Assembly (NCBI GenBank): GCA_021234155.1
Contig: JAJEKV010000063.1
Location: 6,695,710-6,759,709 of the forward strand
Direction of reading: 5' to 3'
From: Isoetes taiwanensis
Lineage: Eukaryota; Streptophyta; Lycopodiopsida; Isoetales; Isoetaceae
Length of the DNA stretch: 64,000 bases
In this document: piece by piece, positions 6,045 to 57,021 of the stretch
Layout: every line of letters starts with the position of its first letter
Numbering within the stretch: position 1 is the first letter of the stretch
The notes under the pieces: model-generated
Database searches by the model: none
What the model saw: the letters and a program-made list of their open reading frames with translations, nothing else
What the model was told of the DNA's origin: nothing
Made by a program: the position numbers and the translations under genes

Positions 6045-6117
6045 TGAAGCAAAGTACAACCGTTATAAGTGGCATTGAAAAGAAATAGACGCAGACCCTG
6101 GGTTTAAATCATGTTAC

Positions 6118-7194: not shown

Positions 7195-7288
7195 CTGCAC
7201 AGCATAGTAAACTTAGCACATTTGAAATATACAGTCTCAAAATTTAGCAATGCACAAGCTAACATGCAATGCACATGAGGGCCAGCGC

Positions 7289-7808: not shown

Positions 7809-7868
7809 GATGGCCAAGGGATTTATGAAAAAAAAAACAGACTGCATCCACAATTAGAAATGACTTAC

Positions 7869-9482: not shown

Positions 9483-9600
9483 GGGTCTTTGCATAACATC
9501 ATTCATGAATCCCATTAGTGGTGTGTCAAAAGAATTAAAAAGAGCAATTTGCGAGAAAGGAGGAGATTACAAGACTAACCAAAAGATTGCAAGAGGTCCC

Positions 9601-10089
9601 AAATTGGGCGCCCAATTTTTGAGAAAGCGAAGGAGATTACAAGAAGAGAGAAGCCCGAGGGTCCCAAATTGGGCGCCCGCCCAATTTGCTGTGAGCAAAG
9701 GAGGTTACAAGAAGAGAGAGGCGGAAGGGTCCCAAATTGGGCGCCCAATTTGCTGAGCTTGAGAGGAGGTTACAAGAAGAGAGAGGCCGAGGGGTCCCAA
9801 ATTGGGCGCCAGCCCAATTTGCAGAAAGGAGGAGATTACAAGAAGAGAGAAGCTCGAGGGTCCAAAATTGGGCCCGCCCAATTTGCCAGAGCAGAGGAGG
9901 TTACAAGAAGAGAGAGGCCAGAGGGTCCCAAATTGGGCGCCCGCCCAATTTGCAGAGCAGAGGAGATTACAAGAAGAGAGAAGCAAGAGCAGAGAAATGG
10001 GCGCCCGCCCAATTTGCCCCAGCTTTGGGAGGTTAGAAAGCAGTAAGAAGGTTTAGAGCTTTGATAGATTTGGGCGCCCGCCCGATTTG
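9601..10089. repeat. Array of element-1 palindromes, about 65-bp period
   Basis: Eight palindrome copies start near 9601, 9666, 9734, 9799, 9865, 9930, 9995 and 10068. They are separated by a repeated purine-rich spacer (GGAGATTACAAGAAGAGAGA). Several copies have lost the centre (9601, 9734, 9865), leaving shortened palindromes. The array lies just upstream of the ParB-like exon, probably in a 5' intron or leader of that gene. Short frames read through it in both directions because the unit lacks stops in some phases; they are not genes. Confidence 0.9.
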
Positions 10090-10365
10090 CTGATCCAAGG
10101 GACTTATGAAGCCAAGAGGAGACAAATGAGGCGGGCCTTCAAGGTAATTAGAATGATCCAACGGGCCAAAGGGTTATTGGGTGCAGAGGAGACAACTTCT
10201 GAGGTACAAAGTGACAACCAAGCAGAGAGAGGTGCGCGCCATATGATTGGGTGGACTCCTTAAGGCCAGTGGCTTATCTCCTGCACTAATGTAAAGAACT
10301 GAAGTTGAAGAAAAGAGCAGTACCTTTTCCTCCCTTCACGGGTCGACTTTCCATGAAAGCAGTGG

Positions 10366-10570
10366 CACCTGGAAGCTAGCAGTCAGCGCTTGGAAGAAAT
10401 CACTTTGAACACGACAGGCGCCTGGTAGCTCGAAGTTAGCGCTTGGAAGAAATCAATTTGAAAACGATAGGCGCCTGGATGCTTGGAGTAAGCGCTTGGA
10501 AGAAATCAGTGTGAACACGATAGGCGCCTGGATGCTCTGTGTCAGCGCTTCGAAGAAATCGATATGAACA
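10366..10570. repeat. 53-bp tandem repeat with AGCGCT and GGCGCC sites
   Basis: Four copies of a unit containing AGCGCTTGGAAGAAATC, GAACACGATAGGCGCCTGG and a GATGCT-like spacer follow each other. The AGCGCT hexamers are at 10385, 10438, 10491 and 10543, a spacing of 53, 53 and 52 bp. Both AGCGCT and GGCGCC are self-complementary. The block lies in the region between the divergent genes of element 1, so it may be part of a control region. The rest of 10090-10868 shows no gene. Confidence 0.8.
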
Positions 10571-10868
10571 GGCTCAAAGAATGCGGAATCACGAAAAGGA
10601 ATGGGCGGTTAGGTTTAACTGATGAGTGACAAGTGGCGGCCATGCAAAAGAAGACCCTAAAAAATAGACGTTTTTAAGTAAATATGGACCAAAGGACAGA
10701 ACAATAAAAATAGACAGCTTTGCAATAAATGTGCCCGAAAAAGTAAATGCGCTTTTTTTAAATTGACATACACGTATTGAAATTTAAATTTTAAATTTTG
10801 AATTCTCACGACGCCCGCCCAATTTCAAATTTATAGTACGGTCCGCCTGGTACATTTTCAATTTCAAA

Positions 10869-12829: not shown

Positions 12830-12885
12830 TTAGGGCCCCACCAATATTTGATTTACGTCCCGCCTGCATTTGAATTTGAATTTGA

Positions 12886-12897
12886 ATATATATTGAA
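12886..12897 (+). promoter_or_regulatory. Possible TATA region of the element 1 transposase
   Basis: GAATATATATTGAAC lies about 105 bp before the first suitable ATG (12996), directly downstream of the Helitron B insertion. It is preceded by TTACGTCCCGCC. Position and composition fit a plant TATA box. There is no further support. Confidence 0.3.
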
Positions 12898-12995
12898 CTA
12901 TGGTGGGAGAATTGATTTTTGAAATACTCTCGAGGAAGCGGAGCGGCTAAGCCATTTCGTTCTCTCACATTCTTGGGCAAAGAACTTCTTGACGG

Positions 12996-15900
12996 ATGGC
13001 GTGCGATTCACCAAAGGTAGGTTTCTTTCGGTATATACGTTCATTCTTTGCCTGGATTGGTATAGAACATTATTGATGATAAGATTCGACAGATAAAAAG
13101 ATAATTTTGAGAGATGTATGTTCGGTCCCCTCTATATTCTATCTCGGGTAGCATGGAAGCAGGGCCAAATGGGTGCCAAATGGGCGGATAGACCTCCTGA
13201 ATATGTATCATTCACAGGTGCACATGTAGAAAGAGTGGCTATGTTTCATTTATGTATAGCACCTCAAGATTACTAGACCGAGGAGCCAATTTTAGCGACT
13301 AAAAGCAGCAGGGGGGAGGAAATTGGGCGGGTGTTCAATTTCAACTCCTCAAAGTTACTAGACCAGGGAGCAAATTGGGCGCTCGCCCAATTTCAGCAGC
13401 TAAGAAACACTGCAACAGGGAGGAAATTGGGCGGCTGCCCAATTTCAACTCCTCAAAGTTACTATACCAGGGAGCAAATTGGGCGCTCGCCCAATTTCAG
13501 CAGCTAAGAAACACTGCAACAGGGTGGAAATAGGGCGGGTGCCCAATTTCAACTCCTCAAAGTTACTATACCAGGGAGCAAATTGGGCGCTCGCCCAATT
13601 TCAGCAGCTAAGAAACACTGCAACAGGGTGGAAATTGGGCGGCTGCCCAATTTCAACTTCTCAAAGTTACTAGACCAGGGAGCAAATTGGGCCAGCCCAA
13701 TTTGACCAGACTAAAACATCAACAGCGGGGGGAAATTGGGCGGCTGCCCAATTTCAACTCCTCGAAGTTACTAGACCAGGGAGCAAATTGGGCGCTCGCC
13801 CAATTTGAGCAGCTAAGAAACACTGCAACAGGGAGGAAATAGGGCGGGTGCCCAATTTCACCTTTCCAATTTACGTAACAACAGGGAGAAAATTGGGCGC
13901 CCGCCCAATTTCACCATCTAAGGAGCATGTGCTGTAACTTTGCTCTTGAACTGATTCATTTTTTTTGGTGCAGGAGGTGTACCTATTCAAAGATGGTCGG
14001 GCAGTTGGCAAAGGGACCATGGGAGCTAGGGAGAGATGCCACTTTAAAGACATCCCAGATGGACTTGTGAGTGTGGGTGTTCTAGCTGTGTTTGAGGGGC
14101 ATCATGTTCTCTCTTGGCCTACTCCAGAAGCAAGTACCTTAGGTGAGGCATTGGGTTCCTTCATTCTCTGGAGGGAAAGTGATGTTCATGACTCGATGTC
14201 GGGGCGTGCGTCGGCGACAAGAAGACGGCCCGAGGGGAAGCAACGAGAGACACCATGTCGCTAACTAGGTACACACTACTGGAGACTGACTGCGAAATTT
14301 ATCACTCTTGTGCTGCCATCCCTGTAGCGAAGGGATTTATATCCTTCACTGGTCCAGACGATGCAGTATGTGACCAGTTCTTGGGTATGAAGACCGTAGG
14401 GGTGTCTGTTACTGGAAGGCTTTCCCCTCCGACAGAGGTGAACTTCCGGTGTCCGGCATGTTTGACAATACCTAAAGCGGGCATGCTTTTGAGGTGGAAT
14501 AATGATCTAGTTAGGGTTTGTGGGGTGAAGGTGTCGGAAATTTTAAGTCTTGGCCCAGATGGAACAAAGATGATCTGACGTCGAGCGGAGGGCAGCTTCG
14601 GAGATTGAAGCATCCGCGATCTGAGAAGCGTAAATACACCTTCCATTCTCGTCGGCCAAAGAAAGCATCAAAGCCTCCAAAGATAGATCGGCTAACAACC
14701 AATGAAGCCATCTTGAGGTATAGGAAGACCATGTGTTGCAAACAGAGATGTTGTGAGAAATTCAGTAGGGATCAAGCTATAAACATCTTGAAAGGATTTC
14801 TTTGCCATGAAATCGAAAGTGATAGCGGGACCACTTTTGTGTATGACATGTTAGGCAACAATATGAAGGGTAGAAGGGTTCATCGACTAGTCTTGCAAGG
14901 CATCGATTAATACGTGAGAGGGCTTGGTACCTTGGTCTTGGGATTTCAAAGTCGGGTATCTGAAGTGGAAGGTAGAATTCGCTCCCCTGCTTTCGAAAGG
15001 CCGAGCATGGCAATTCAGGCACTATGAAAGCACGTGCGGCCACCTTGGCCTCAGAGGCTGTTTTTTCCATGTTTGTGAAGGAAAATTGTGAGTCTTTACC
15101 TCACCATAGCAGGAGGAATGATGATGGGATTCGAGAAAACGTGAGGAAGTTGCCTGCTATGTTTACGAAGACATGCATTCTCGAAGAGGTCAACGCTGAA
15201 GTGATGGCTCTCACAGGCAAGAAGGTATCTGCGACAGGATTTCATAGGACGTGGAGACGTAGCTTCAAGGACGTCAGTATTGCTAAGAAGAATGCATTCT
15301 CCAAGTGTGACACTTGCGAGGTTATCCGCACGAAGCTGCTGAAGACCAAGGATGAGGCTGAGAGGAGAATATTGCATGATCAGAGAAGGGCACATAGACT
15401 AGAGCAGCAATCATGTCGCACCCCATCTTGGTCATGGAGACTGTTATCCCACGGCATCCTCGAGACTTTGTATGTATCATTCACGACAAAATGGATCAGG
15501 CAAAGACTATGATTCCAAAGTTGTTCGATTCCGTGAAGTCCCTTTGGAGACTAGATAAGCTAAAGACTTCATTGGCAGTGCACTTACCCACGCCATGGGA
15601 GAGGGTGCTATGGAAATTTTGCTTTGGATCTGTGGGTCGAGGCGACTCCAACTTCCATGTAGGTTCTTTGAATAGTATTTTGAAAAGGTTGGAGCTGCCT
15701 AATGAGTTTGCGAGGAGGCCATCTTGCCTTTGTCGATCCATCAGTCCCCAGTTGGGCGAGGGCCTTTACGTGACACCACTGCGCTAAGCGTCAAGTTGTC
15801 GGCTTTGTCATGCGGGAAGAGCATCCCGTTGCCATCCCTCAACCTGAGGGACCCTCATTGAAGCGTCTCCCTCGCAAATTCTTTGTTGCAACTAGACAAT

Positions 15901-17086
15901 GCATCCGGACAAAACAAAAATAGGTATGTATTCTCGTATCTTTCATACCTTGTATATCCGGGTGTTTTCGAGGAGATTGAGTTAGGGTTTATGATGCCTG
16001 GCCATACACATGGCGATATAGATGCTATGTTTGGAAATTTTCATCTACCTTGAAGAAAGCCGAAGTGCTAACCATGCCCGAGTTGTTGTATGAATTTCAT
16101 ACGTGCAATCTCAACACGCCAGTGCCATATGTTGTTCATAAGGTTCCAGATTGGAAAGGTTTCATAGAAGGGTATATCCCTGATGGGGAAGATAGATTGA
16201 CAGGTCACACTGAGCCTCTGACCTTTTTGTTTGCTATGAATGGTGGCCCGGCTGTCATGTACCATAAGGCTCGTCCTACGTTCGTGGATTGGCTACCTGC
16301 TGGTGGAATAAGAATGTGGAAAGAAGGAGAGGATGGAAAACCCCTAATGCCATCTGGAAATCCGAAGATGCTAGCACCTAAGAGCTCGGTGAAAGACATT
16401 GGTCAGCTCCGAAACAGTATCCATAAGCATATCCTCCATTGGGTCGCATGCTCGACGAACAAGAAGGGCACACCAGAGACGGCCAAATATACAGCACAAT
16501 TTACGGCGACAATTGAATATTGGATGGGACTCTTGGAGCATCTGAGTAACATCACCAACGTGGAAGGTCCTTACGAGGACTTTTGGCCGCGCACTAGGCA
16601 AGATAGACTTGACGTACCTGATGTGGTGGCTGTGGTGGAGCCAATTGCAACCATCACTCCTGCTTATGTTGGTCCATTGAAGGATAAGCCCGTACCAGAA
16701 TTCAATCCTTTCAAGGATTTGAAGAAGGGCATGTTTGTATTGGCGCCCTCTGATGATGTCTTGTGCCCAACATGGCTAGGGTATGCTACAGAAGAACCCC
16801 AAATGGATGATAAGAAAGACAACTTGAGACTATCCGAGGTCACTTGGTGGGAGCTGTCCACAGTAGGGAACCGGTGTTCCCGACCAACTATATCAATTGT
16901 TGGAAGAAGAGATGGAGGCCGACCAACGCTAGTGACCGCATTGAGATAGAGAGTATCGACTACGGCTTGGAGTCCTTGAATAAGAAGAAGCTACCAAACA
17001 CCGTCAAGATTCCCACACTTGTTGCGAGAAGCATATCGGCACTTGCGGGGATGTATGTTAGTGTTATCGAAGCGTCTCTTTTATAA
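12996..17086 (+). pseudogene. Element 1 transposase-like gene (DUF7869 type) with DUF8039-like N-terminal region
   Basis: A possible short first exon (ATGGCGTGCGATTCACC, donor at 13017) is followed by an intron full of palindromes and a TTTGGTGCAG acceptor at 13972. The next exon, VYLFKDGRAVGKGTMG..TPEASTLGEALGSFILW, resembles the DUF8039-like region of plant transposon proteins. Then come CCKQRCCEKFSRDQ (about 14730) and FHRTWRRSF..AFSKCDTCEVI (about 15240-15320). The core motifs are IIHDKMDQAKTMIPK (about 15480), LDNASGQNKNRYVFSYL (about 15895) and MMPGHTHGDIDAMFGNF (about 15990). The C-terminal part from 16050 reads VPDWKGFIEGYIPDGEDRLTGHT and ends near 17086. The order and spacing match DUF7869 proteins; the conserved Asp residues suggest an RNase-H-like transposase core (inference). 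Several frameshifts and stops break it. Element 2 carries a clear homologue. Confidence 0.7.
13320..13911. repeat. Array of element-1 palindromes, 52-bp period, upstream of transposase exon
   Basis: Twelve palindrome-like sites start at 13320, 13372, 13424, 13475, 13528, 13580, 13632, 13684, 13733, 13785, 13837 and 13890, so the period is 52 bp. Two variants alternate: one with centre GCTCGC and one with GGCTGC or GGGTGC. The higher-order unit is therefore about 104 bp (AGCAGCTAAGAAACACTGCAA and CTCCTCAAAGTTACTA spacers). The array sits in the presumed intron just before the 13973 exon of the transposase gene. Confidence 0.9.
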
Positions 17087-17141
17087 AAAGTCCACAATTC
17101 AAGGTATTGTCCATATTTAATGAAACTGTGCTTAACCCACA

Positions 17142-44921: not shown

Positions 44922-44950
44922 CAATAAGTCGTATTTAATTAAAGTGGGAC
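44922..44950 (+). repeat. Left terminal inverted repeat of element 2 with CAAT flank
   Basis: CAAT is followed by AAGTCGTATTTAATT and AAAGTGGGAC. The 25 bases after CAAT are the exact reverse complement of 56993-57017. The related phrase TGGGAC recurs just inside the end (near 44965 and 44982). Confidence 0.9.
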
Positions 44951-45149
44951 AAATCTTGAATTTTGGGACTCGGACTGAAAATGGGACTCACACACCATAA
45001 AAGAAATTTCTGAATTGATTGCTTGAATAGAATTACACATGACACACATAGAATTGGGTTACTTGTTTTCCTCATAAATTTTACAAACCACTAGTTGAGA
45101 AAGTTTTCAAACTTCTCAATATTATGCACCCTCATACAATGATATAGCA

Positions 45150-48050
45150 TGGAGGTTGCTCATGGCCTTGTCCATCTCCTTTCTTGGGATCTTGTGTGTG
45201 TTGTCTTTTGCAATGTGAGAACTTGGATATGACCATACCACACACTCCACCAATTCCCTCCTTTGAGGGTCAAGATAATTTGGCCTCCACTTCTTCTCCC
45301 AAAGAGTCAGCAGTATTGCTCCTTCAAGTTGCCCTTCTTGTGCCTCCCAATGGGCTCCCAATATTGAATTTGGAATCCGTGACGCAACTCCTCTTCATCG
45401 GGCATAGTGGTGGTGACATCGAGAGTGCCACCCCTAACCATATTGGACAGTCCTCATCATCGCCTTACTAGCACAAAGTATCCTTCCTTGATGTCCTCAA
45501 AGGGATCCCACTCGTGAAGATCAAACCACTTCGGCTTTGAGGCCTTACTTCCCACAAACCACTTGGGACCCAAGTGAGCATTCTTAGACGTGCTTGCACC
45601 TTGAGAACCCTCCCATCTTGACTCGGCAAGAACCCGCTCTTAGCTCCCTCCCACATGGTCGCTTCGGTTTCTAAGCATGTCACAACTTTCTCCCCAAAGA
45701 CTTGATTAGGGAGTCCATTTGATTTTTCTTAAGAGTGGAGGTGTGCTTTCCATTTCAACATCATCCCAAAGGCGTTATGTAATCCTTGATGCCCTTCACC
45801 AGCCATAGAGTCTTTGACTGCCTTGAAGGGAGAGGTAGTGGTTTTGGCTGCCCTTTAGGAATGAGAACTTCACCAAAGCAAAGCACCCCTTTGCCACAAC
45901 TCGATACCTTGTACAGGCATCCACAACTTGTCACCTGGTCTCCACTTATATTGCATGATTGGTATTCCATCCCTAACCCAAAACTTGAATTGAAGTGGCT
46001 TTGTGTGTCCTGTCAACTGGTCCTTGCCATCTAGCAAGTATCCTTCTACAAATGATTTCCAATCTGCAACCTCATCCATCAAGAAAGCCATTGGGTTGGG
46101 GTCAATGCAGCTCTCAAACACATCCATTAGTTCAGGGAGAGTGGTCACGTTTTCTCTCTTGAGCTTGGTGGAGAAAGTTCCAAAGAATCCATCTATATCA
46201 TCATGCGTATGCCCAACCATCATGAATCCCACTTTCACAACTTTGAATACTCCCACTACTGTCAAGTATGACATTGCCCCAAACATCCATCTATTCTTGT
46301 TTTCTTTCCAACAGTTGTCCAACCGAACACATAGCTCCTCGTAGTGATTTCTCAAGTAAGGGAAATCATCCCAAGTCCTCCTTGATTCACTAGACACCTT
46401 GGATGTGAGCTTTTTATCCGCCTTTGGTAACAAAGCGGTTGATCATCCATCAAAGCCTCAAAAATGGGTCTTTGAAGGGGAATACCTCCTCCCTTCTATC
46501 GATCCTTTCTCTAGTGTTCTCAAGCACTTGAAAATAGAGCTCACATGGAAGTTTGGATCATCTCTCCATAGATCAAGCACAAAATGACCATATGTTCCAG
46601 CCCATGACCATGTGTTAATACACCCGCCCGGACTTACTTTCATCCGAAAAAGCGTTTTGACAACGCTTGGGTAAAGGATCTAGCTTTGGCAAGAAAGTCT
46701 TGTGTTGGTCCATCTTATCATGAATTATACACAAAAATTTGTCCTACAGCATCTCGAAAAATGTTCTCCACCGCCAATACAACCGCTCTACATGATATTT
46801 GGTCCCTTTGGTGATCTCGCAAATTGCTCCCTAATTGCCATTCTTTCTTTCTCTATTGCAGTTGATGCAAGTGTATCCTTGAGTTGAATGCAAGTGTTGC
46901 ACTTTGAGAATGGCATGTGTTGTAGGACACTCACGTCCCAGAAGTGAGTGCTCCATAACTTGCTGAAATGTGATTGAGAAAGAGGCCTACCTCCAAAGTA
47001 GTTTCTAGGATGGAGTTGACCTCCTTAAGGCACTCCTTTTGGATATAGTGTTGTGGCAACACTCTTTGCACCACTACGCACACCGTGCTCGCTCACCTTC
47101 GACTTGTGGGGCATAGATTGAGACATGTATCTCACAAAGCTCTCAAGACCTGCAATGGCCTTTAGAGTATTTGCTCTAGGTTTCAAAGTGAGTGCATTAC
47201 CATGTTGGAACAAAGTGTGCCCTTTTCTAACCTGCTCCCCAAAGATTCAGAAAATGAAGACTTGCTCACCCCAAAGAATCCATCTCAATGCTCTCATACA
47301 TACCTTCATTCCCCTCAATTGATATAGCAACCGGCCCCCGTGTTTTCATCATAGCTGGAATTCCTACACAAGGAGTAAATGAAATTAATCCTATCTTTTT
47401 GAAGCTGTCCAATGTATTGGGACCTTATCCAAGACGAGGTCATCCACATTGTAATGCACTTGTGCAATCTAGGTTGCAACACTCTTGTCCCCTAATTGCC
47501 TCCGTGTTTTTTTGGTTGGTGCCATACTTTCCATCCTTTCTAAATATTTGTCACTTCTAGGCCTCTTGGGCACCTTTGGCTGCCTTTTATGAAAGACATA
47601 GCGTCTCTTCCTTGTGATCAAAGGATGCTCATCGACCACCAAATCTTCCACATGGCCTTGGGTGGGCCTTGGGGTGTGTAGTTCAAGAGGGCATTCTAGA
47701 GTATCACCATTCTTGTGTGTAATAAATCTAATTGGCCATCTCAAACCCGAGCTTGGGACTCCGGCAGCCCCGAGCACACAATGCAATCACTAGAGCTTCC
47801 CGGACATGATAGTATCAACTTCGATAAGAAGCTTCACAATGCCAACTCCAAGATGTTCATCTCCCCTCTCATCATTCACACTATCAAATGGATCAACTGC
47901 AGTTATTATGCCCTCTGCAAATACTGCCTGCAGTTTGCAAGGGTGCAACAAAAGGCAACCCATCCTCCTCCATTGGAGCCTAGGGCAATGGCCTCCTTTG
48001 GACTTCCCCTCGGCTCCATTTTACTCATCTCACATGCTCCCTGAATGAAA
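45150..48050 (-). pseudogene. Element 2 transposase-like gene (DUF7869 type)
   Basis: Reading leftward from about 48050: a frame-broken N-terminal part, RKRRYVFHKRQPKVPKRPRS (about 47600), AIAGLESFVRYMSQSMPHKS (about 47130), and FSKCNTCIQLKDTLAS near 46890. The core follows: FLCIIHDKMDQHKTFLPK near 46710, RLDNCWKENKNRWMF, and FMMVGHTHDDIDGFFGTFS near 46190. Then come VADWKSFVEGYLLDGKDQLT and a C-terminal region ending near 45150. Each motif has its partner in the element 1 transposase in the same order (for example HDKMDQAKT, LDNASGQNKNR, GHTHGDID). This shows common ancestry and marks the residues likely to be catalytic. Numerous frameshifts separate the pieces. Confidence 0.7.
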
Positions 48051-48320
48051 AAGCTCACATTAAAACCATATAGCCCCAAACACCACAAATATGACCATAT
48101 GAACCATATAAAACCATACAAACATATTAAATATAACCATATTAAATCACACAACCATATTAACTAAAATCATATAACCATATTAAAGCATACAACCACA
48201 CGCATTCTAAACCATATGTGAACATTGTAACCATATATACCATTGATACTATTCAACCATTGAAACCTTATTAAATACATAAGACAACATATATAAACAT
48301 ATAACCAACCCTTTCATATC
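48050..48320. repeat. AT-rich ACCATAT-type repeat
   Basis: Short degenerate repeats of (A)ACCATATTAA and ACCATATGAACC fill the start of the spacer between the divergent genes of element 2. No coding content. Confidence 0.7.
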
Positions 48321-48327
48321 TTGGCAT

Positions 48328-48484
48328 GGCCACGTGGCGCCTCTTCAGAGGTCTGAAAACCGCGGGCCACGTCCAAGAATCCGCGACCGCCACGTCATGG
48401 AGGGCATGGCCCACACGTGACAGAAGTATATTATTGCACTTTTACGAGGTTCGAGGGTGCAGCCAGAATTAACTGCACCCTCTT
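48328..48484 (+). promoter_or_regulatory. Probable shared promoter region with clustered ACGT boxes
   Basis: Four ACGT-core motifs lie within about 95 bp: GCCACGTGGC (a perfect palindromic G-box, near 48331), GGCCACGTCC, CGCCACGTCATGG and CACACGTGAC (near 48413). AGTATATTATTG follows near 48426, then a hairpin AGGGTGCAG/CTGCACCCT at 48458-48485. The block lies between the divergent transposase and ParB-methyltransferase genes, about 180 bp before the ATG at 48609. G-boxes are bound by plant bZIP and bHLH factors. Control of both genes from here is inference. Confidence 0.45.
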
Positions 48485-48608
48485 CCTCTCCCCCCGACCA
48501 TTCTTCCTCCCCTGTTTTCTCTGATCACTCTTCGAGCTCCCTGTTTCCTTAGGCGCCCGCTTTTACCGTCAAAGCGATCGATCAAACCGATTCGATTCCA
48601 GCCATCTT

Positions 48609-48890
48609 ATGACAATGCTTGGTCGACTGGGGGCAGACGCCCAAATTGAAGTTCTCGCCAAGTTCATTGTTCGAGCTTCTGCTTTGAAGAAAGTGAGGCC
48701 CTTTTTAGTGCTGCTTTTTAGTTTTCTGTAAGTCTTTTAGTGCATTTTTTCTTATATTCTGTTGTTAGAGGCTCTTATTAATCCCTGATACAATTTACAG
48801 CCCGACAAATCCTTATTCACGCTTTGTCAACGACTATACCCACATGGAATCGAAGTCGGAAGCCTCCTCCTCATCCAGCAAATCTTCCAG
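48609..48890 (+). pseudogene. Probable first two exons of the element 2 ParB-methyltransferase gene
   Basis: Exon 1 (48609-48692) gives MTMLGRLGADAQIEVLAKFI and eight more residues, then a GTGAGG donor. Exon 2 (48801-48890, after TTTACAG) gives PDKSLFTLCQRLYPHGIEVG and SLLLIQQIFQ, then GTATGT. Both exons have lengths divisible by three (84 and 90 nt) and stay in frame when joined, which is why I accept the ATG at 48609. No domain is recognised. How they connect to the 51470 exon over 2.5 kb of repeat-rich sequence is uncertain, and they could be a separate small gene. Confidence 0.4.
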
Positions 48891-49329
48891 GTATGTTTTT
48901 GTAATATCATACCCTTTTTTAATCTCATTTTTCTGTACTGTTCTCCACTTTTCTCTGTACTGTTCTCCACTTTTCTCTGTTTTCTCATTAATCTTAATAA
49001 TCTTTGTATTGTTTTCTGTTTTTTGTTATCTTTTTCTTGCTTGTGGTTGAATTGAATACATTGTACATGCACAAGTGAGAATAGTGGTTATAGTAGCAAG
49101 CAACCGAGAGAGAAATCATCAGAGACTGGTGTTAGGAAGTAAGATATTGCAGAGCATTAACAGAAAATAACTAGGAATGTCTTTCTCCCAAAGAAGAATT
49201 CGAAATAGGAATTGCTTCACAGAATCTCCATTTCTAACTCACAGCAAATCCACTGCAGGAGACATGCAGAAGGGAGTGGCGAGTTGAGAATACTTCAGCT
49301 TGCCAACAGTCAGGAAAGTACAGGCCTTC

Positions 49330-50596
49330 TTCTCGACTCGCGAGTCGAGAACTTCTCGACTTCATGGCGGCAGAAGAGGGAGTGTACACTGGATGCTATG
49401 GCAGGTTGAGGGATTCTCGACTTCATGACCGGGATTGCACAAATACCCAATGTCTTCACATTCTTTAGAACCTGCTTCAGCCTTCTCGACTTCGTGAGTC
49501 GAGAATGTGATACCACTGCCAATGGCTCTTTGTGCGGTCGCGGAGTGCCTCCACCCGGTCGAGCCACTCTCCTTCGAACCATGCTCGCCGAATATTGCGA
49601 AGAGGGGCTCGGGTTCTGGGTGGAGGCCTCGCGGCACAACAACTGAGCTGGCGGCTTTCTCGACTTCGTGAGTCGAGAAAACGCGGAAACTCGATTACTT
49701 TCGAGCTGGCTTTGCAGGCGGTCTCAACCACTCTCCTTCTATCTTCCTCGGACATTCGCGAGGGAAGTGGTTTTGGTAATCTCCGGGCCAACTCTTAGCA
49801 ACCCAATTCTCACGTGTGTGGTGGCGTTGGCCTCTACCCAATCAAAGACCGTCTCCTTTGAACCATCTTAGTAGAATATTGCGAAGGGATGGGCTACGAT
49901 TGGGTGGAGGCCTCGGCGGCTAACCTGAAGTTGCTGGCTGCTTTCTTGACTCCGTGAGTCGAAAGCGCGAGGCTCTAGTGCACTCTAGAGCTGGCTGCGC
50001 GGGCGATCTTAAACACTCTCTTCTATCTTCCTCGGACATTGCGAAGGGAAGTGTTTTTCTTGTCTGGGGCCAACTCTTAGCAACCCAATTCTCCTATGTG
50101 TGGTCGCGAGAATGCATGCATTCCACCGAGCTTCTTTGTATGCATTCTCGGCTCGCATGATGGGGAATGCCTTACCCAACCCGGCACTCCATGTGTACTA
50201 ACGGAGTTACGGATGGTTAAAGGCATTCTCGACTTTTGCGAAAAAGAATGTAGACAGAAACCAAGCATTCTCACTTCGCAAGTCGAGAATCCCGCCCGAC
50301 CAATTCTCACAGTATGCGGTAGCGGTGGCCTCGACCCAGTCAGAGTCACTCTCCTTCGAACCATCTTCGTCCGAATAGTGCGAAGGGGAGGGGCTCGGAC
50401 TGGGTGGAGGCCTCTACAACTAATCACAGGGGAAACCCAGAGGAAGCCAAGGCTTGCATTCTCTACAAGTACTGCACTTTCTATTCTCTTTTTTTTAGTC
50501 CCAAGTGCCTCTAGCCTGTCTGAGCCACTCTCCTTCGAACCATCTTCCTCGAATATTGCGAAGAGGAGTGGTTCGGACAGGGTGGAGGCCCCTCCG
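49330..50596. repeat. Element-2 palindromes alternating with four ~90-nt hairpins
   Basis: A perfect 22-bp palindrome (arm TTCTCGACTCG) is at 49330-49351. Degenerate versions lie near 49366, 49485, 49656, 49945, 50228 and 50268. Between them lie four copies of a longer hairpin at about 49545-49635, 49828-49918, 50327-50412 and 50507-50596. Each has GCCTC(C/T)ACCC..GTC..(C)CACTCTCCTTCG facing CGAAG(A/G)GG..TGGGTGGAGGC around an AACCATCTTCSTCGAATATTG-like loop. The arms keep complementarity although their sequences differ between copies. The block lies between the first exons and the ParB-like exons, presumably in an intron. 50600-51465 shows no feature I can name. Confidence 0.75.
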
Positions 50597-51469
50597 ACTA
50601 ACTACAAGAGGATGCATTTGAACCGCATCTCCTGGGCCTTAGTCCTAGCCTGATCTATGTACAACATTCCAAGTAAACAGTCCATGGAAAAACAGACCTA
50701 TAACGGAACTGTTCTTTACCCCCGATCCAATGTTTCCTTGCCGAGCATCTCTCAACCTAGAGAGTAAATCATCTCGGCTGCGAGAAATGCTGGACAAGGA
50801 AACACTGAATCCGTCGAGCTTATCAGCAGTTCCATTATTTAAACACATACGGCATGTTCTACAAGCGAAATAACATAGGCATCTCTGAAACTCACCTCTT
50901 CACGCAGTAATTCCTTGGGCCACTGTATCACGGATCCCGCAGCCTCACCCAGAGTCTTTGCTTCTTCGTTTGTCTCTTCAAGAGTGTATTCGTGATCTAT
51001 TACTGTATCATCGCTGCGATTCTCGCGTATCCCCTTTCCATGGCGCCGCAGTGTAGAGTTCCGGTGTCTGGCAGCTCCTCTCCGCTTCCTACCTTAGCTC
51101 CGTGCTCATCGATCAATTCAACTGCTTGCAATAGGACGCGCGGTCAGGAAAAACACACATATGCAAGGCGCTATTAGCAGCTTACCGCGTCGCGGCGCCA
51201 TTCCGGAAGTCGCTAACAGTCGATGATCCCCTCCGACCTCGAGTTCCCCAATGCCGCAGGGAAGATAAACTACGCTCCACTCACTTAGTCCCTTGATGTG
51301 ATTCAATTTCGAAATAGTGTTTGGGCGGGCTAAAGCCGACCGTGCTGTACCCTTAGCCCGCTTTTTTTCATAAATGATTGCATGTCCTTAACTTCAAATT
51401 AAAGAACACGCCCGATCTTTTTTACATGCAGTCCTAAAACTCACAACGCGCGGAGGAAACTTAATTTAC

Positions 51470-52795
51470 AGAGTCGTCCGAAGAGGATGAGAGGGCATAT
51501 AGAAATGACTCCGTCCAAGAAGCGAGGCGCCGGAGGGGATGCTTACGCAAAAAGAAGAAGAAGAAGACAAACACCCCAGGTGAGCTCTGAGGTTTTTCTT
51601 TTGTCGGAATACCTTAACTGATCCATCCGTTCTTCTTGCAGCATTCACCTCGGACTCACTGGTGATCACTGGCCGAACTCCATTCTTCGTCATCGAGGGA
51701 CTGGAGACAGAGCTTCTTGAAACAGCGGCAGATTCTTGGTGGTATGTCGAGGTATCGACAAGTGGGAAGGAGAAAGATCTGTTTACACCAAAGGGACAAG
51801 AAGAGCTCCCGAGACAAGTACAAGAAAATCGGTGTTGTGCTCTCCGTCTCTCGCCCGGTCGATTCAAGCATTTAACACTACATGTCGAGGACTGCCAGAA
51901 GAGTAAGTTCTATCGCACCAAAAAATTAGCAGTTTCAAATTATTCTCACTCTTCCATGAGCAAGGCTAAGGGCACCGAAAAAAGGCCGGCGCCTTTAAAT
52001 TGTCAGAACCTTGGGTGGAAGGATCTGGAAGGGATGAAGGAGGCCGGAACCCTAACATCCAGGGAGCTTGGTATGGAGATTTCCAGAGTCAGGGAAAAAC
52101 TGTTCAATACGGGGAGCTTCACTTCTACTGTGCTGAAGACTCTACAACACTCTGCAGTGGGGAATGTTGTGGTTCATACACAAAAAGTCCACCAAAAACA
52201 AAGATGGGGATGATGACACCACACGGGGAGGAGTCGGATGACGAAGGAGACGAAAGATATGGTCGACTCCCCAAACCTCGATCCGGATGATCGATCGATC
52301 AGGATTTCTCAGAGAGGGGCACAGAAAATGGAGCGTCTAGCTCAGTATTATCCGTTGGGAATATCACACAAGCTGCTGCTGGACATTAGACGGCTGAAGG
52401 TTTGCACGGGAGATGCCGTCTTGTTCAACCACAGGGAATTTAATCCAGCACACATGCTGGAGATTCTGAACCTGATGGTGCGACATCCTGTTGCAGATCC
52501 AATGCCTGCGGATGTCATACCTTTTAGCAGTCGACAATGAGTTGTTCACCGAAGTCCGAGGAAGATCTGAAGGGAAAAGACGTCCGGTTCTGGGTTGTAG
52601 ACGGTCAGCATTCAGTTAGGGCGGCTCAAGTATTGCAGACGGAGAAGGAGGTGCCGCAAAGGATCAAGGATAGATATGCCAAGCGAGAGTGCAGAGTTCT
52701 TTCGGCGGAGACGCGCCCGAACCGAACCGCCAGCGGCGGTAGCCACTGCCCGAACACAATAGCGGCGGAAAGTGCCGCCTACGTAAGGTAAATAA
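51470..52795 (+). pseudogene. Element 2 ParB-like domain exons
   Basis: Exon 51470-51579 (TTTACAG before, GGTGAGC after) gives ESSEEDERAYRNDS and a basic run RRRRGCLRKKKKKK, a likely nuclear signal. The next exon starts at 51642 after TTGCAG (FTSDSLVITGRTPFFVIEGL). After a frame change near 52220 it reads ISQRGAQKMERLAQYYPLG, LFNHREFNPAHMLEIL and VADPMPADVIPF. After another shift at 52540 it reads DVRFWVVDGQHSVRAAQVLQ and KRECRVLSAE. FWVVDGQHSVRAA is a textbook ParB/sulfiredoxin-fold motif. ParB-family proteins bind palindromic DNA, act as CTP-dependent clamps or have nuclease activity; which applies here is unknown. The exon ends with GTAAATAAC at about 52793. The homologous exon of element 1 is at 7869-9482. 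Confidence 0.65.
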
Positions 52796-52812
52796 CTCTC
52801 GGAATCTTTCCA

Positions 52813-53085
52813 TTTGGACTTCGCGAAGTCGAGAAAGCCCCCATCCTAACATTTGCCGATTATCATCGGGTTTCGACTTCGCGAGTCGAAAGCCCTGAGT
52901 AACACGTAAAGTCAAAGGATGTGGAGCTTTTTCGACTTCGCGAAGTCGAGAAAACCCTTAGCCAAAGGCGTGGGTAATGCAGAAAATCAAAGGATGCGCG
53001 AGCTTTCGACTTCGCGAGTCGAGAAACCCGAGAAGTAAAAGAAAATTAGACATTCAAGGGACTTTCTCGACTCGCGAGTCGAGAA
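52813..53085. repeat. Element-2 palindromes in the intron after the ParB-like exon
   Basis: Five sites occur at intervals of about 55-75 bp: near 52813 and 52929 with arms GACTTCG/CGAAGTC, near 52870 and 53004 as TTTCGACTTCGCGAGTCGA variants, and a perfect copy at 53064-53085. They fill the intron following the ParB-like exon, the same place as the 73-bp array of element 1. Confidence 0.85.
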
Positions 53086-53129
53086 AACCCGGGGCTACTA
53101 TTTACTGTTTATTCCTGGGTGTTTGTAGA

Positions 53130-54772
53130 TACTTTCATGCTCTGACATTGGTACATTGTCTGAATGCAGCCCTTATCCTGACCAGGATCATACACGCTAG
53201 GCAACAAAGGAAAGCATTGGGTTGTCCTCGGCGTCCCTAAAGGAAAACAGGGGCTCCCTGGATAAGTGGAAGACCTTTGAGAAACTATGCAGATATGTTC
53301 TGCTGGAGGGACAGGAAGATGACGAGGGAGAGGAAGAAGAGGAGAAGAAGAAGAGAACACCAAGGAAAGGCAGGGAGTCTCTCTCAGACCAATACGACCT
53401 CATTCTTAGCACTGAGGCGGTCTGGGAGAAATGGACCACATATGGGCTCAATGGACAAGAGGCAAGTCAAGGACAAGAACGGAGAATTTCCAAGCGAGGC
53501 CCGACCCCAAGTTGTTTGACAAGCAGTTCATGAAGAGGATACGGGGGCCTCACGGACAAAGAAACGCTTGACCTACAAGGCAAAATCTTGGAGGGAACAA
53601 TCCTGCTGAGGAAGACCAGGAGTTCTAAATTGCAGGACGCAAAGGATTATGCCACAGTCCTAAAGCGACAGCGTGCGTTAGAAGAAGGCATCACGGAGTT
53701 CTGCAACGTTGCATCTAATGAATACCATGATTTTGATTATTACAAGGAAAAGGCTGCCCTTGATGAGGAAGACATGAAGGAATTGAACCGTCTATGTCAA
53801 CCCTACATCAACACCAAGCTGAAGCGTAACGTCAAAACCCTTCCTTTCCCTGAACGTGCTATGGCAATTCGAAAGGAAGCTTGGATTCGGGGTGGTCCCA
53901 TTTAAGGCAGACGATAGCTCCCCCCCATTTCTGGTTACTTTGGGACACAAGGGATTTGGTGGTGCAGGCGGCACTGGACCCGTGGCACTATTTGCCATCA
54001 ATATGATCGAAGACCCCACCCTTTTTTATGACAAAGCTGACATAGAGCAGTGGTACAAGACGTGTCTGGACATGACCGACCTGGATACTTTCAGTTTCCT
54101 TGTCTTTTGCATGCCGGGCAATCAAACAACCGGCTTGTCTCCCAATGGGCAAACCGATATTAACTTCACCAACAAGATCATGCACTCCATATACGAACTT
54201 GATCATGAGTGCAGACTTGGCTTGCCGAAGGCACCAAGCTTTGCCAACATAGTTTTGGTTTTGATTTCAAGATCGGCGGTCGACCTGGATAAGTGGTGGT
54301 CTAGCGAGCATCATTATCTCGACAAGTTCATGATCTCTCAAGAGCAGATGGAACCCCTGGAAGGGGGGGCAGGTTTATGGAGGATGTTCCATCGATGGAC
54401 AAGGTCGGCCAAGGATGGTGCGACCGGTCCTATACATAGAATTCCTATCCGCCAAGAGTTATCAAGTACTTCATAACCAAATTTGGTCGAGGAAGATCAA
54501 ATTGTATGCGAGTGGTACATGAATGGCCTGTTCTCTCAGGGGGCTATGCTGTTTGGAATGAAACCTATATCCGTGGTTGGAAATAAGGACATGGTTGAAA
54601 CCATTCAGTCATACCTGGATCTGCTTCATGAGCATTTCAAGGGGAGGAAGACAAATGGAAGCAGTAAAGACGACGAGGACGAGGGAGACAAACCTGACGG
54701 AGACGAGGATGTCGAAGGATTGGACCAGAATGCTGCCGAAAACATTATTGAAAACCTGAGATTGAGGTGAGT
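53130..54772 (+). pseudogene. Element 2 methyltransferase-like domain
   Basis: After linker helices (AALILTRIIHARQQRKALG; WKTFEKLCRYVLLEGQEDDE with an acidic and then basic run; LQDAKDYATVLKRQRALEEG) the frame changes near 53880 to FGVVPFKADDSSPPFLVTLG and GGTGPVALFAINMIEDP, TLFYDKADIEQWYKTCLDMT, FSFLVFCMPGNQ. MIEDPTLFYDK..QW recalls motif IV (DPPY/W) of amino-methyltransferases. After a stop at 54476 the sequence continues EEDQIVCEWYMNGLFSQGAM and FG, the counterpart of VLDFFSGGSFSRAAM in element 1 but with a ruined motif I. An acidic tail (SKDDEDEGDKPDGDEDVEG) and a stop at 54770 end it. A beta-class fold is inferred from motif order; this copy is inactive. The name rests mainly on the element 1 motif I. 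Confidence 0.5.
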
Positions 54773-54792
54773 TTACTTTGCTCTAACGGTGT

Positions 54793-54868
54793 TTCTCGAC
54801 TCGCGAGTCGAGAAAACTCGTTTCCTTTCAATACCTTTTCTTGTCATTCTCGACTCGCGAGTCGAGAA
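54793..54868. repeat. Two perfect element-2 palindromes between methyltransferase and HAD genes
   Basis: Perfect 22-bp palindromes (arm TTCTCGACTCG) at 54793-54814 and 54847-54868, each followed by AACTCGTTTCCTTTC. They stand 54 bp apart in the 160-bp gap between the methyltransferase stop and the HAD ATG. Confidence 0.95.
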
Positions 54869-54938
54869 AACTCGTTTCCTTTCTGACAGATGTCATCATT
54901 TCAGGGAATTCCAGCTCAACGAGTCCGGATCATTGTCA

Positions 54939-55740
54939 ATGGATTCCAACGGTTCACGTCGCGAGGAGAATGAGAATGAAAATCCAGAGCAAGACAGACG
55001 CTCCGCGGCCGGAAAAGAACACGAAAAGTTAATGATCCCATTTGGATCCCGATGAACCGGAAATATGGTCAGAGCCAAACTCCAACTGGGATCCAGCTGG
55101 TCCCACCAAGCTTGTAATATTTGACGTCAATGGAGTATTAGCTGCAGTATACCACGACAAAGACGTCCCCGAGATTAACACCTCGCAGATCCCAGTGAAA
55201 ACAGAGCATAAAATAGTGTATCCGAGGCCCAGAGCTAAGGAAATTATTGATCGTGCCCGCACGGATTCGGTGGGCATATGGTCTTGTATGGCAAAGAAAA
55301 ATATTGTCAATGTTCTTGGTGTTCTCGGCATTTCAGTTTTGAAGTTCAAGTTCGTTTGGGGAAACGAAAGGGTCGAGCATGTGAAGGACCTCGATCCAGC
55401 CATCACAAAGGGAAGCCTATAATGGTGAAAAGGCTGGGCCGGTGTTTATGAGCAATTCCGGGACTTTGGCAAACACAACACGCTGATCATAGACTTACTC
55501 CGCCTACAAGTGCTATCATAACGCAAAAATACAATCATTGCTAAGCCATATCGACGACCAAGAATATGAGACAGATAGGTGGTTGTCCTTCGGACTCTGC
55601 CTCTGTCTTGGCGGAATCCCTCTTTGCCATTCTTGTCGCCCGATGTGCTTACGAACTATCCGAGCCTCACGGCCCGATCCGTAGAGAGCAAGATCATGAA
55701 AGCTATGGACGACAAATACTTTGGTGAACAAGAAGAGTGA
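54939..55740 (+). pseudogene. Element 2 FCP1-like HAD phosphatase
   Basis: The ATG at 54939 opens MDSNGSRREENENENPEQDR. After a frame change near 55035 come LDPDEPEIWSEPNSNWDPAG and TKLVIFDVNGVLAAVYH. KLVIFDVNGVL is the catalytic DxNxV-type motif I that plant FCP1-homology (NLI-interacting factor-like) HAD proteins carry. RPRAKEIIDRARTDSVGIWS and CMAKKNI is the usual motif II region. FVWGNERVEHVKDLDPAITK, KPIMVKRLG, QFRDFGKHNTLIID and then, after frameshifts, SAYKCYHNAKIQSLLSHIDD give the remaining motifs. Family members dephosphorylate protein Ser or Thr, for example the RNA polymerase II tail; many plant ones are uncharacterised. Three or more frameshifts make this copy dead. It ends with KYFGEQEE and a stop at 55740. 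Confidence 0.65.
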
Positions 55741-55843
55741 CCCCTTTTCGGATAGTCAAATTGTGTGAATATTGTAATCGAACGTGAACACATGTATTGA
55801 CCATTTTGTAATGAATATACTTGTATATTGAGTTTTTAAATGC

Positions 55844-56093
55844 CTTTCTCGACTCACGAGTCGAAAGGCATGCTTGTCGTGTTGATGAAATGCTTGTACA
55901 ATCTATTATGATAATGCTTGTACATTGGGTTTCCTGGGACTTTCTCGACTCGCGAGTCGAGAAAGGCATGCTAGTTGTCTCGTTGACAAAAGCATTTGTA
56001 TGCTTCCGTGTGTGATTGGATGCAACCATATTCTAATGAGAATGGTTGTACTTTGACTTTTATGGGCCTTTCTCATTTCGAAGTCGAGAAAGA
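55844..56093. repeat. Element-2 palindromes downstream of the HAD gene
   Basis: A near-perfect copy lies at about 55844-55867 (one arm changed to CTCACGAG), a perfect one at 55942-55963 and a degenerate one at about 56070-56093. They are separated by a related spacer (GGCATGCTTGTCGTGTTGATG and GGCATGCTAGTTGTCTCGTTG, split phrases GGCATGCT and GTTGA). A half site with TTCTCGACTCGCGAA is at about 56848. Confidence 0.85.
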
Positions 56094-56217
56094 CACTACT
56101 TCCCACGCCATTGGATGCAGGTTGTATGGAATGAATGTTCTCCGTTGTAATTTGATTTCAACGTTCTTTTCTACGTTTTGACTAATGACACCGTAATTGT
56201 TAATCATACTCTCCTTG

Positions 56218-56560
56218 CTCCAGGTGGTTCAGGCACAGATCCGACACCAGCACAGATCCCGCTCAGGCATCACAGAGACCGCTCCAGGCGGCACGGATCC
56301 CGCTCAAAGGCGGAAGAAATACCGCTTACAGCACGAGATCCGGTCATGCTACACTCTTGCCCTACTTTGGGACAAGGTTGCTTTCGCGAATTGAGAGGTT
56401 GCTTTCGCTACACCACGGGAATAAAGAACGGCCGAAGAACAAAGAGAAAGTCCAGGAAGCTCAAGGCATATTGCAAGCATTGCATAACATCCACGGAGGT
56501 TGGGGAAGGAGCATATTCGATGAAAGGTCATGGGGGCGAGTGGAGAAGTCGTGACGGACC
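56218..56560 (+). pseudogene. Unidentified basic coding-like region in element 2
   Basis: After a GCTCCAG acceptor-like site the frame reads VVQAQIRHQHRSRSGITETA, RRKKYRLQHEIRSCYTLALL and WDKVAF; in the next frame NKERPKNKEKVQEAQGILQA and LHNIHGGWGRSIF to a stop near 56554. Composition and continuity across one frameshift suggest a decayed exon, perhaps the end of the HAD gene or a fourth gene. I do not recognise a family. Confidence 0.3.
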
Positions 56561-56992
56561 GGCCCGGCGGTAGCTCGAGAGGCACCTCCACGTGAGGCAT
56601 TCCACACTCTTCGGTTGCCCCCAAGGCTTACGAGACGGCATGAAGAAGCGCCACAAGTTAATCCCCCCTAAGGTGGACCACCTACCAAGATGATGTAATC
56701 AGAGGAGTGGCGAAGACCGCCATGGTCTCTGCGTCCGATGTAAAATACATTGTATCTGTTCAATTTATTAATAAAAATTCTTTTTCAACTACATCTTTGG
56801 TTTCAAACTTTAATGAATTTCCTTTGTTTCAGTTGCATTGTTTTTGTTCTCGACTCGCGAACCTGGGAAAACTGCAGCACAGCTCGGATTCAGAGTTTTA
56901 TTCAAAAATTCGAATTAAGGATAGTTTTCGGGTCGGGGTGCTACTTTTTATGTAAATTAACCGGGTTCCGAAAAAAAATGGGAATGGAATGA

Positions 56993-57021
56993 GTCCCACT
57001 TTAATTAAATACGACTTCAAT
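56993..57021 (-). repeat. Right terminal inverted repeat of element 2 with CAAT flank
   Basis: GTCCCACTTT and AATTAAATACGACTT are followed by CAAT. It is identical in reverse complement to the left end. Joining the two flanks at one CAAT would restore a continuous Helitron G sequence. Confidence 0.9.

Follow-up and report, generated by a model that had tools for sequence, protein, structure and literature searches.

Does a pair of perfect inverted ends belong with the very different protein-coding pieces between them, and if so, what would a ParB/DNA-methyltransferase gene do for a transposon? Both questions arise from one locus in the window, by which we mean the whole stretch of 64,000 nucleotides analysed. 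The window also holds dirigent genes, a family that marks land plants, and by these the host is a land plant.

The element and its superfamily

The locus, here called E1, contains the following features.

44926..57017, whole element, 12,092 bp, with 25-bp perfect terminal inverted repeats (TIRs) and CAAT outside both
44926..44950, plus strand, left TIR
56993..57017, minus strand, right TIR
45122..51093, minus strand, transposase gene in pieces, the first at 50842-51093 and the rest from 47786 down to 45122
51465..52790, plus strand, ParB/DGQHR-like part of the second gene, with FWVVDGQHSVRAAQ in 52528-52788
53201..54770, plus strand, methyltransferase-like part, assigned from gene position and a weak resemblance to the second copy (E2, below) around motif I
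55036..55740, plus strand, FCP1/HAD-like gene in several frames, with a match to Pfam NIF

The TIRs form an exact inverted match, 12,042 nt apart, and their sequence has just two matches in the window at up to 6 substitutions. CAAT stands immediately outside each TIR, and the perfect ends and flanking CAAT given in a preliminary description of this DNA are thus exact in the sequence. An empty site was not found, and the 4-bp flanking repeat is known from this one copy. The transposase core (45873-46442, minus) matched Pfam DUF7869 (E 1.1e-35; 123.4 bits, cut-off 26), which bears out the DUF7869-type transposase first read from the letters; DUF7869 is named nowhere in the literature searched. 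Three acid-containing motifs, IIHDKMDQ, LDN and GHTHxDID, are common to the transposases of E1 and E2, and they may have the catalytic role in an enzyme of the DDD type. E1 is a real element with ends, a 4-bp flanking repeat and a DUF7869 transposase gene, and it is decayed, as had been described.

The 4-bp repeat, the 25-bp TIRs and the size of E1 fit the Sola superfamily, for which the available text of PMC10741241 gives a 4-bp target site duplication, TIRs of 11-1124 bp and a length mostly of 2-9 kb, with some above 15 kb. For CMCT/EnSpm, termini of 5'-CA..TG-3' in most cases and duplications of 2 to 5 bp are given in the available text of PMC12730594; the 4 bp of E1 fall within this range, and its ends, AAGTC...GACTT, do not have such termini. 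The same source assigns an 8-bp duplication to KDZ (Zisupton), and this candidate was rejected for E1, where ACAACAAT before and CAATGCAA after the element agree over 4 bp only. Ginger elements have an integrase of the Gypsy type (PMC10741241, available text), and DUF7869 was the sole Pfam match of the E1 transposase core.

A diverged second copy

A diverged copy, E2, was found at about 1.0-17.1 kb, in the orientation opposite to E1 and interrupted by two Helitrons. TIRs of E2 were searched for in the window and not found. E2 and the palindromes reported below were absent from the preliminary description.

5157..17083, coding part of E2, mirrored in layout and related to E1
13950..17083, plus strand, transposase gene pieces, with DUF7869 in 15981-16946
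7854..8648, minus strand, ParB-like piece, FWIVNGNHTTAVAQ, tblastn E 3.5e-7 against E1
5157..7108, minus strand, methyltransferase-like pieces, with motif I VLDFFSGGSFSRAA in 5160-6062

The two copies were compared by tblastn, run without low-complexity and composition corrections, and low-complexity and antisense matches were set aside. The transposases are homologous (E 2e-37, 44-54% identity), and the DUF7869 of E2 reached E 4.3e-4 and 20.3 bits in Pfam, under the cut-off of 26. The gene pair recurs in divergent order in E2, as a transposase and a ParB piece homologous to those of E1, in a comparison based on two copies only, both decayed. The earlier claim that ends and genes form one transposon is supported by this mirrored order for the transposase and the ParB piece; of the cargo, the methyltransferase is tied to the element through E2 only, and the FCP1-like gene weakly and in E1 only.

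The second gene and the FCP1-like gene

The E1 piece 52528-52788 matched a ParB-like partition protein in PHROG at E 0.016, under the cut-off and outranked by two PHROGs of unknown function (E 0.0025 and 0.0087). In NCBIfam it matched DGQHR at E 0.07, below the cut-off, and in Pfam DUF6551 at E 0.051 and DUF6371 at E 0.065. The ParB-fold domain proposed before is partly upheld in that two libraries, PHROG and NCBIfam, name the ParB/DGQHR group at identical residues, but all matches are sub-threshold. With a 48-aa ParB core, 6 phage records were matched at E 1-8, two of them annotated DGQHR and both from one phage species, and against plasmids it gave unrelated features only. The E2 piece had no ParB family match by profiles and no phage match, and its AlphaFold model was unusable (mean pLDDT 31.8). 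Profile searches of the two decayed ParB pieces found no HTH family. The ParB-like piece of the divergently oriented second gene is conserved in the mirrored E2.

The methyltransferase signal comes from E2. Profile searches were made with 15 phage methyltransferases, 3 taken from the 15 E2 tblastn matches listed and 12 from 32 further matches listed, and the ORF 5160-6062 (minus) ranked first among 1308 window ORFs, with 20.7 bits and E 2e-5, the next ORF having 6.9 bits and 13,080 shuffled decoys reaching at most 7.8 bits. When the three phages found through E2 were removed from the profile, the same ORF kept 16.0 bits and E 6e-4, ahead of the next ORF at 5.3 bits. A 95-aa piece of this ORF matched 62 phage records by tblastn, and the best 15 of the 62, at E 0.1-8, are all annotated methylase or methyltransferase; because 57 of the 62 are from Gordonia phages, these matches are not independent of one another. 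In E1, no methyltransferase match was obtained for the pieces in Pfam, PHROGs, NCBIfam or PDB or with the phage profile, nor for 53823-54473 by tblastn against phages, and EWYMNGLFSQ was not detected as motif I; the AlphaFold model was unusable here as well (mean pLDDT 35.7). The beta-class methyltransferase of the preliminary description is supported in E2 and detected by no profile in E1. Among 16 pairs of methyltransferase-like pieces from E1 and E2, none scored above all of 300 shuffles, and two (E1 54477 and E1 53201, each with E2 5160-6062) were reached by 1 of 300.

In beta-class DNA methyltransferases, the SAM-binding motif I lies behind the catalytic motif IV, (D/N/S)PP(Y/F), in the chain. 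Only the motif I stretch of E2 was detected by profiles, and its motif IV half (6366-6698) was not. DPPY is absent from both decayed copies, where EDPT (E1) and CDFR (E2) stand by eye at the expected place. No relatives came from viral and GTDB scans in which transposase, ParB-like and methyltransferase-like sequences served as queries, and PDB sequence searches gave nothing relevant. E1 seems to carry the remains of a bacterial-style ParB/DNA-methyltransferase gene besides its transposase, and the second gene is predicted to encode a ParB-methyltransferase protein.

E1 also carries an additional gene, for an FCP1-like protein. The protein had been called an FCP1-like phosphatase, and a weak Pfam NIF match agrees with this (E 0.038, or 0.0042 when read through), but the match is below the cut-off and the DxDx(T/V) motif of FCP1/NIF phosphatases is missing, 55036-55419 having DVNGVL in its place. 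A counterpart of this piece was sought on the E2 side, in 1-1000, and no pair out of 18 frame pairs outscored 100 shuffles.

Palindromes outside the coding pieces

Outside the coding pieces, a 22-bp palindrome recurs in each copy, a different one in E1 and in E2; the arms are 9 bp long and the centre mostly 4 bp. At up to 4 substitutions, there are 15 sites of TTCTCGACT-N-AGTCGAGAA in E1 and 29 of AAATTGGGC-N-GCCCAATTT in the E2 region.

49330..50289, E1 cluster 1, 5 sites flanked by transposase pieces and set in DNA rich in repeats and hairpins
52812..53085, E1 cluster 2, 5 sites between the ParB-like and methyltransferase-like pieces
54793..54868, E1 cluster 3, 2 sites between the methyltransferase-like and FCP1-like pieces
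55846..56869, E1 cluster 4, 2 good sites and a degenerate one at 56847
967..13911, E2-type palindromes, singles at 967, 1113 and 5085, arrays at 7289-7808, 9601-10088 and 13320-13911

An additional cluster 4 site, at 56070, was found by edit distance only. All 15 E1 sites lie inside E1 and 29 of 30 E2 sites inside 1-13911. An unbiased scan of the window for recurring hairpins ranked two arms highest, that of E2 with 25 copies and that of E1 with 7; shuffling each element 60 times never gave a hairpin arm more than once. A looser search, with 6 substitutions, gave 32 sites in E1 and 41 elsewhere; each of 30 E1 shuffles gave 7-17, indicating that matches at that setting are mostly chance. No site touches the coding pieces as drawn (0/15 in E1, 0/29 in E2), and when all sites were slid jointly, zero overlap was seen in 27 of 2419 shifts for E1 and 23 of 2415 for E2. 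Two clusters occupy equivalent intervals in E1 and E2, and the palindrome sequence is wholly different between the copies.

What the palindromes may do

A protein encoded by the element may dock at the palindromes. We infer that these sites act in cis and that the binder is most likely the ParB-methyltransferase. Because their sequence differs while the plan and two positions are kept, site and binder would have diverged together, as ParB and parS do. Our best explanation, to which we give just under half of our confidence and which is read from sequence, is that E1 is a cut-and-paste transposon, decayed and Sola-like, whose predicted ParB-methyltransferase binds its own palindromes and marks the element as own. 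As a dimer, the protein would attach to its own element's palindromes and load or spread along that element, and the mark would be methylation, or occupancy should the degenerate motif IV reflect a dead enzyme. Element DNA would then be recognised as own, and this recognition would govern whether the element is silenced, how its two divergent genes are transcribed or whether the transposase gains access. The wider proposal, a transposon family with partition-like self-recognition in which a predicted ParB-methyltransferase and co-diverging, element-specific palindromes cause own DNA alone to be marked, is less likely than not.

It is unlikely that the transposase, and not the ParB-methyltransferase, binds the palindromes. 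Repeated sites for their own transposase are frequent in transposons, and the transposase has likewise diverged between E1 and E2 and could co-diverge with such sites. However, the sites are internal, since the left 4.4 kb of E1 lacks them and a single degenerate one lies near the right end, and the ends of E1 hold a different short repeat, TGGGAC, three times in the first 62 bp on the left and once, read inward, in the last 100 bp on the right.

We also find it quite unlikely that the palindromes are functionless by-products, hairpin units that slippage or gene conversion has amplified within a large element. Sites inside an array were indeed multiplied by tandem duplication: E2 arrays have periods of 52, 65 and 73 with flank identity of 0.42-0.77, and some neighbouring E1 sites sit in duplications of 75-80%. 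There are also a few alignments, at about 75-76% over 74-92 bp, that connect sites in separate arrays and take in the palindromes themselves. Between E2 clusters, however, mean identity of the 15-bp flanks was 0.19-0.37 against 0.88-1.0 for the arms, and arm identity between E1 clusters was 0.74-1.0. Within E1 cluster 4, which holds the degenerate site, right-arm identity was 0.56. Both copies keep the sites out of the coding pieces, and a common 9-N-9 plan is seen in two unrelated sequences at two equivalent intervals, which argues against this origin.

Action as RNA, by intronic or 3' hairpins affecting splicing, stability or small-RNA production, is improbable. Although a 9-bp stem with a mostly 4-nt loop suits a good hairpin, and several sites are in intervals expected to be transcribed, sites are also found upstream of the E2 transposase pieces, 9-bp stems are short for small-RNA precursors, and no Rfam family reached the gathering threshold in the window. 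That the inverted ends are unrelated to the internal genes, as nested insertions, is very improbable: nesting does occur in the window, as with the two Helitrons inside E2, but the same divergent gene pair recurs in E2 and the last E1 transposase piece stops 172 bp from the left TIR.

Comparison with known systems

The preferred reading, binding by the ParB-methyltransferase, has its closest bacterial counterpart in ParB-parS, in which palindromic sites are clustered on DNA encoding a ParB-like protein, as in E1 and E2. Unlike that system, no ParA was seen and no HTH found in E1 and E2, and their sites, 22 bp with a mostly 4-bp centre, extend across 7-13 kb of a transposon in a chromosome. Phage beta-class DNA methyltransferases, such as yhdJ of Aeromonas phage PhAER-3, share motif I and the following stretch with E2, but the motif IV DPPY is missing in E1 and E2. 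Fungal DNA transposons carrying TET/JBP, as described in the available text of PMC12730594, likewise have cargo acting on DNA modification; the cargo is a dioxygenase, not a methyltransferase, and Zisupton has 8-bp duplications.

The combination of a ParB-methyltransferase with a transposase is already reported from algal transposons (PMC12477816), and the preliminary description, which knew of no described plant transposon of this kind, was too strong. In the available text of that paper, Sola1-1_Ec32, a 21.5-kb transposon of the brown alga Ectocarpus, has a gene for a predicted 1104-aa ParB-methyltransferase opposite the transposase. Like E1, it is a large DNA transposon with a ParB-like and N4/N6 DNA methyltransferase gene in this arrangement; its host is a brown alga, and it was compared with E1 by description, not by sequence. 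Green and red algal cases with the same domain pair are cited there (Iyer 2011; Petroll 2025), the red algal ones named as giant EnSpm elements with accessory genes. The available text names no land-plant case, and its main text, as available, mentions neither palindromes nor FCP1. PMC12477816 suggests that the ParB-methyltransferase binds and modifies its own transposon, and self-methylation, one of the functions raised in the preliminary description, is also proposed there. The role of the protein in algal transposons is so far a suggestion only, and two sister copies with differing palindrome families and two equivalent clusters give it a concrete target in DNA sites. If true, this would be a way for a transposon to tell its own DNA from that of the host and of its relatives, and the ParB-methyltransferase kind of transposon would extend, with E1 and E2, to what looks like a land plant host.

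Two related copies of a transposon

The window holds a transposon with two divergent genes in two copies, each with a single palindrome family of its own; as judged from two decayed copies in one window, the families share a common plan and are unrelated in sequence. The first copy, E1 (44926-57017), has 25-bp inverted ends with zero mismatches, and CAAT lies immediately outside both. The end sequence has only these 2 matches in the 64-kb window at up to 6 substitutions, and the perfect ends and outer CAAT of the preliminary description were borne out. The second copy, E2, is a mirrored relative that was absent from that description's list.

Features of the two copies and their neighbourhood
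51093 down to 45122, minus: E1 transposase in pieces, DUF7869 (E 1.1e-35)
From near 51465, pieces to 54770, plus: E1 second gene
52528-52788, plus: E1 ParB-like piece with FWVVDGQHSVRAAQ, matched by sub-threshold models only
55036-55419: E1 FCP1/NIF-phosphatase-like piece, under cut-off (Pfam E 0.038; 0.0042 read through)
About 13950 to 17083, plus: E2 transposase
8648 to 5157, minus: E2 ParB-like and methyltransferase-like pieces
1161-5060, minus: Helitron-like insertion in E2, with a PPR-like fragment
10869-12829, minus: Helitron-like insertion in E2, with a long polypyrimidine tract
28208-28780, plus: dirigent ORF, Pfam-tested
36323-36853, minus: dirigent ORF, Pfam-tested

The DUF7869-type transposase claimed for E1 was recovered on the minus strand, and frame changes or stops interrupt every E1 gene, confirming a decayed copy. 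The proposed ParB-fold domain stood in part: two of the models matching 52528-52788 name the ParB/DGQHR group, and all matches are sub-threshold (PHROGs ParB-like partition protein, E 0.016, ranked below two PHROGs of unknown function; NCBIfam DGQHR, E 0.07; Pfam DUF6551, E 0.051, and DUF6371, E 0.065). The FCP1-like phosphatase likewise survives as a resemblance that misses the cut-off, with DVNGVL at the position expected for DxDx(T/V). Within 49531-50601, between the transposase pieces, lie copies of a unit of about 285 bp and repeats rich in hairpins, with palindromes intermixed.

E1 ORFs were compared with window positions 1-18000 by tblastn with low-complexity and composition corrections off, which returned a list that included spurious matches. 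The transposases matched at 44-54% identity (E 2e-37). More transposase pieces gave E 9e-10, 7e-9, 3e-8, 1.2e-4 and 1.2e-4; for the ParB-like piece, identity was 38% across 55 residues (E 3.5e-7). The DUF7869 match of E2 fell under the cut-off (E 4.3e-4, 20.3 bits). A search of the window for E2 ends found none, and one of 1-1000 for an FCP1-like gene was likewise negative. At the ORF end 542-784 (+), 20 residues resemble the E2 transposase end (score 42, against a maximum of 40 in 500 shuffles) and five other comparisons were negative; this may be a third element truncated at the edge of the window.

Both insertions in E2 start with an identical 29-base TC end preceded by A and finish with a 3′ hairpin (one base differs) and CTAG followed by T, a combination characteristic of Helitrons. 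The PPR-like fragment (2516-2797) matched Pfam PPR_2 under the cut-off (E 8e-4). Four more Helitron-like 3′ ends, with CCCAGC hairpin, CTAG and T as fixed by the search pattern, lie at 21591-21617 (+), 35559-35585 (+), 42561-42587 (-) and 62811-62837 (-). Two neighbouring ORFs encode dirigent proteins, with Pfam E-values of 6.9e-23 and 4.5e-22, presumably reflecting a land-plant host. Dirigent-related DNA recurs at 17845-18646 and 63687-64000 in near-identical copies, direct and inverted, and large inverted repeats link 18-22 kb with 59-64 kb.

The methyltransferase-like domain

The E2 ORF at 5160-6062 contains VLDFFSGGSFSRAA (METHYLTRANSFERASE evidence), and over this part it matched a PHROGs DNA methyltransferase family (E 0.015). 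When a 95-residue piece of it was searched by tblastn against 50,697 phage records, 62 matched, 57 of them from Gordonia phages; among the 15 of 62 listed, all are annotated as methylase or methyltransferase (E 0.1-8). A profile of 15 phage methyltransferases placed this ORF first among the 1308 ORFs of the window, with 20.7 bits (E 2e-5; runner-up 6.9 bits); the highest of 13,080 shuffled decoys scored with this full profile reached 7.8 bits. After removal of the three seeds to which E2 itself had led, the ORF scored 16.0 bits (E 6e-4; runner-up 5.3 bits). The match spans about 53 residues around motif I, and the motif IV half (6366-6698) was unrecognised in profile searches.

The E1 counterpart was undetected by phage profiles, even one including the E2 piece, and profile and sequence searches of the later pieces of the E1 second gene gave zero methyltransferase matches. 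In shuffle tests of 16 E1-E2 piece pairs, each of the best two was equalled by 1 of 300 shuffles. The motif IV DPPY is absent from both copies. Because motif I is matched in E2, the E1 counterpart is undetected and DPPY is missing, the putative domain is supported in E2 and weakly placed in E1, and methyltransferase activity is not supported; of the beta-class enzyme proposed earlier, the motif I part in E2 is retained. In the Acinetobacter phage MD-2021a record, a DGQHR-domain gene comes immediately after a methyltransferase gene; the E1 ParB-like piece has few phage matches, all weak, and this DGQHR-domain gene is one of them.

Palindromes of the two copies

The 22-bp palindrome of E1 reads TTCTCGACT-CGCG-AGTCGAGAA, at times with a centre of 5 or 6 bases. 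All 15 occurrences in the window at up to 4 substitutions, and all 17 at up to 5 edits, lie inside E1. That of E2, AAATTGGGC-GCCC-GCCCAATTT, occurs in E2 and in the sequence past its left Helitron; 29 of 30 sites fall within 1-13911, the outlier at 30945 being a 4-substitution match, and two extra short-centre forms lie at 9601 and 9734. The E1 sites (49330-56869) include GACTC/GAGTC, with GACTT variants lacking GANTC; GANTC is the site of CcrM-type methyltransferases.

When recurring hairpins with 7-bp arms and a 2-6 bp centre were scanned for without bias, the E2 arm ranked first (25 copies) and the E1 arm second (7), followed by a Helitron-end arm (4); zero arms were seen twice in 60 second-order shuffles per element. 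Hairpins of any sequence numbered 16 in E1, 26 in 5085-17133, 2 in 1-1300 and 21 in the remaining 38.6 kb.

Equivalent clusters occupy the gap between the ParB-like and methyltransferase-like pieces (E1 52812-53085, E2 7289-7808) and the position directly past the methyltransferase-like ORF (E1 54793-54868, E2 5085). Each copy also has a cluster close to the first transposase piece; that of E1 is flanked by transposase pieces, that of E2 is upstream.

What may bind the palindromes

We propose that a dimeric protein of the element binds the palindromes. In bacteria, ParB binds to palindromes that are grouped on its own DNA, and the E1 ends bear a different repeat, TGGGAC (three times within the first 62 bp, once within the last 100), possibly for the transposase; for these reasons the ParB-methyltransferase would be the first candidate. 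The suggestion that such a protein binds and modifies its own transposon (PMC12477816) is a further reason. The transposase itself remains a rival as binder, against which stands the separate end repeat that could serve it. If the ParB-methyltransferase is the binder, the mark on the element might be methylation or mere occupancy, motif IV being degenerate in these decayed copies.

Neutral repeat growth also remains a rival. E2 sites form three tandem arrays (periods 52, 65 and 73) and three single places, and inside the arrays the flanks are alike (agreement 0.42-0.77), indicating that sites there multiplied by tandem duplication. Over 15 bp, flank agreement is 0.19-0.35 from array to array and 0.22-0.37 between arrays and single sites, with arms at 0.88-1.0; between E1 clusters the values are 0.21-0.37 for flanks and 0.74-1.0 for arms. 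Blastn still links sites from separate arrays in alignments of 74-92 bp, at about 75-76%, that take in the palindromes.

No site touches the coding pieces, which we drew ourselves, partly with introns inside (0/15 in E1; 0/29 in E2, counted from 5085 and with the short-centre forms), and sliding all sites jointly gave zero contact in 27 of 2419 shifts for E1 and 23 of 2415 for E2. A role as RNA hairpins is the remaining rival.

Comparison with known systems

The earlier statement that no described plant transposon with this combination was known goes too far, given that Sola1-1_Ec32 carries a ParB-methyltransferase gene opposite its transposase, and green and red algal cases are cited in the same paper (PMC12477816). 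Its main text has zero occurrences of 'palindrom' or 'FCP1', and a limited literature search turned up no description of palindromes in elements of this kind. Passages of PMC10741241 describe Sola elements as having DDD transposases, 4-bp duplications and lengths of mostly 2-9 kb, some >15 kb, and as present in a moss and seemingly uncommon in flowering plants; a passage of PMC6786969 mentions them in Azolla. By description E1 is Sola-like: it fits the published duplication size and length range, and its transposase is a putative DDD enzyme.
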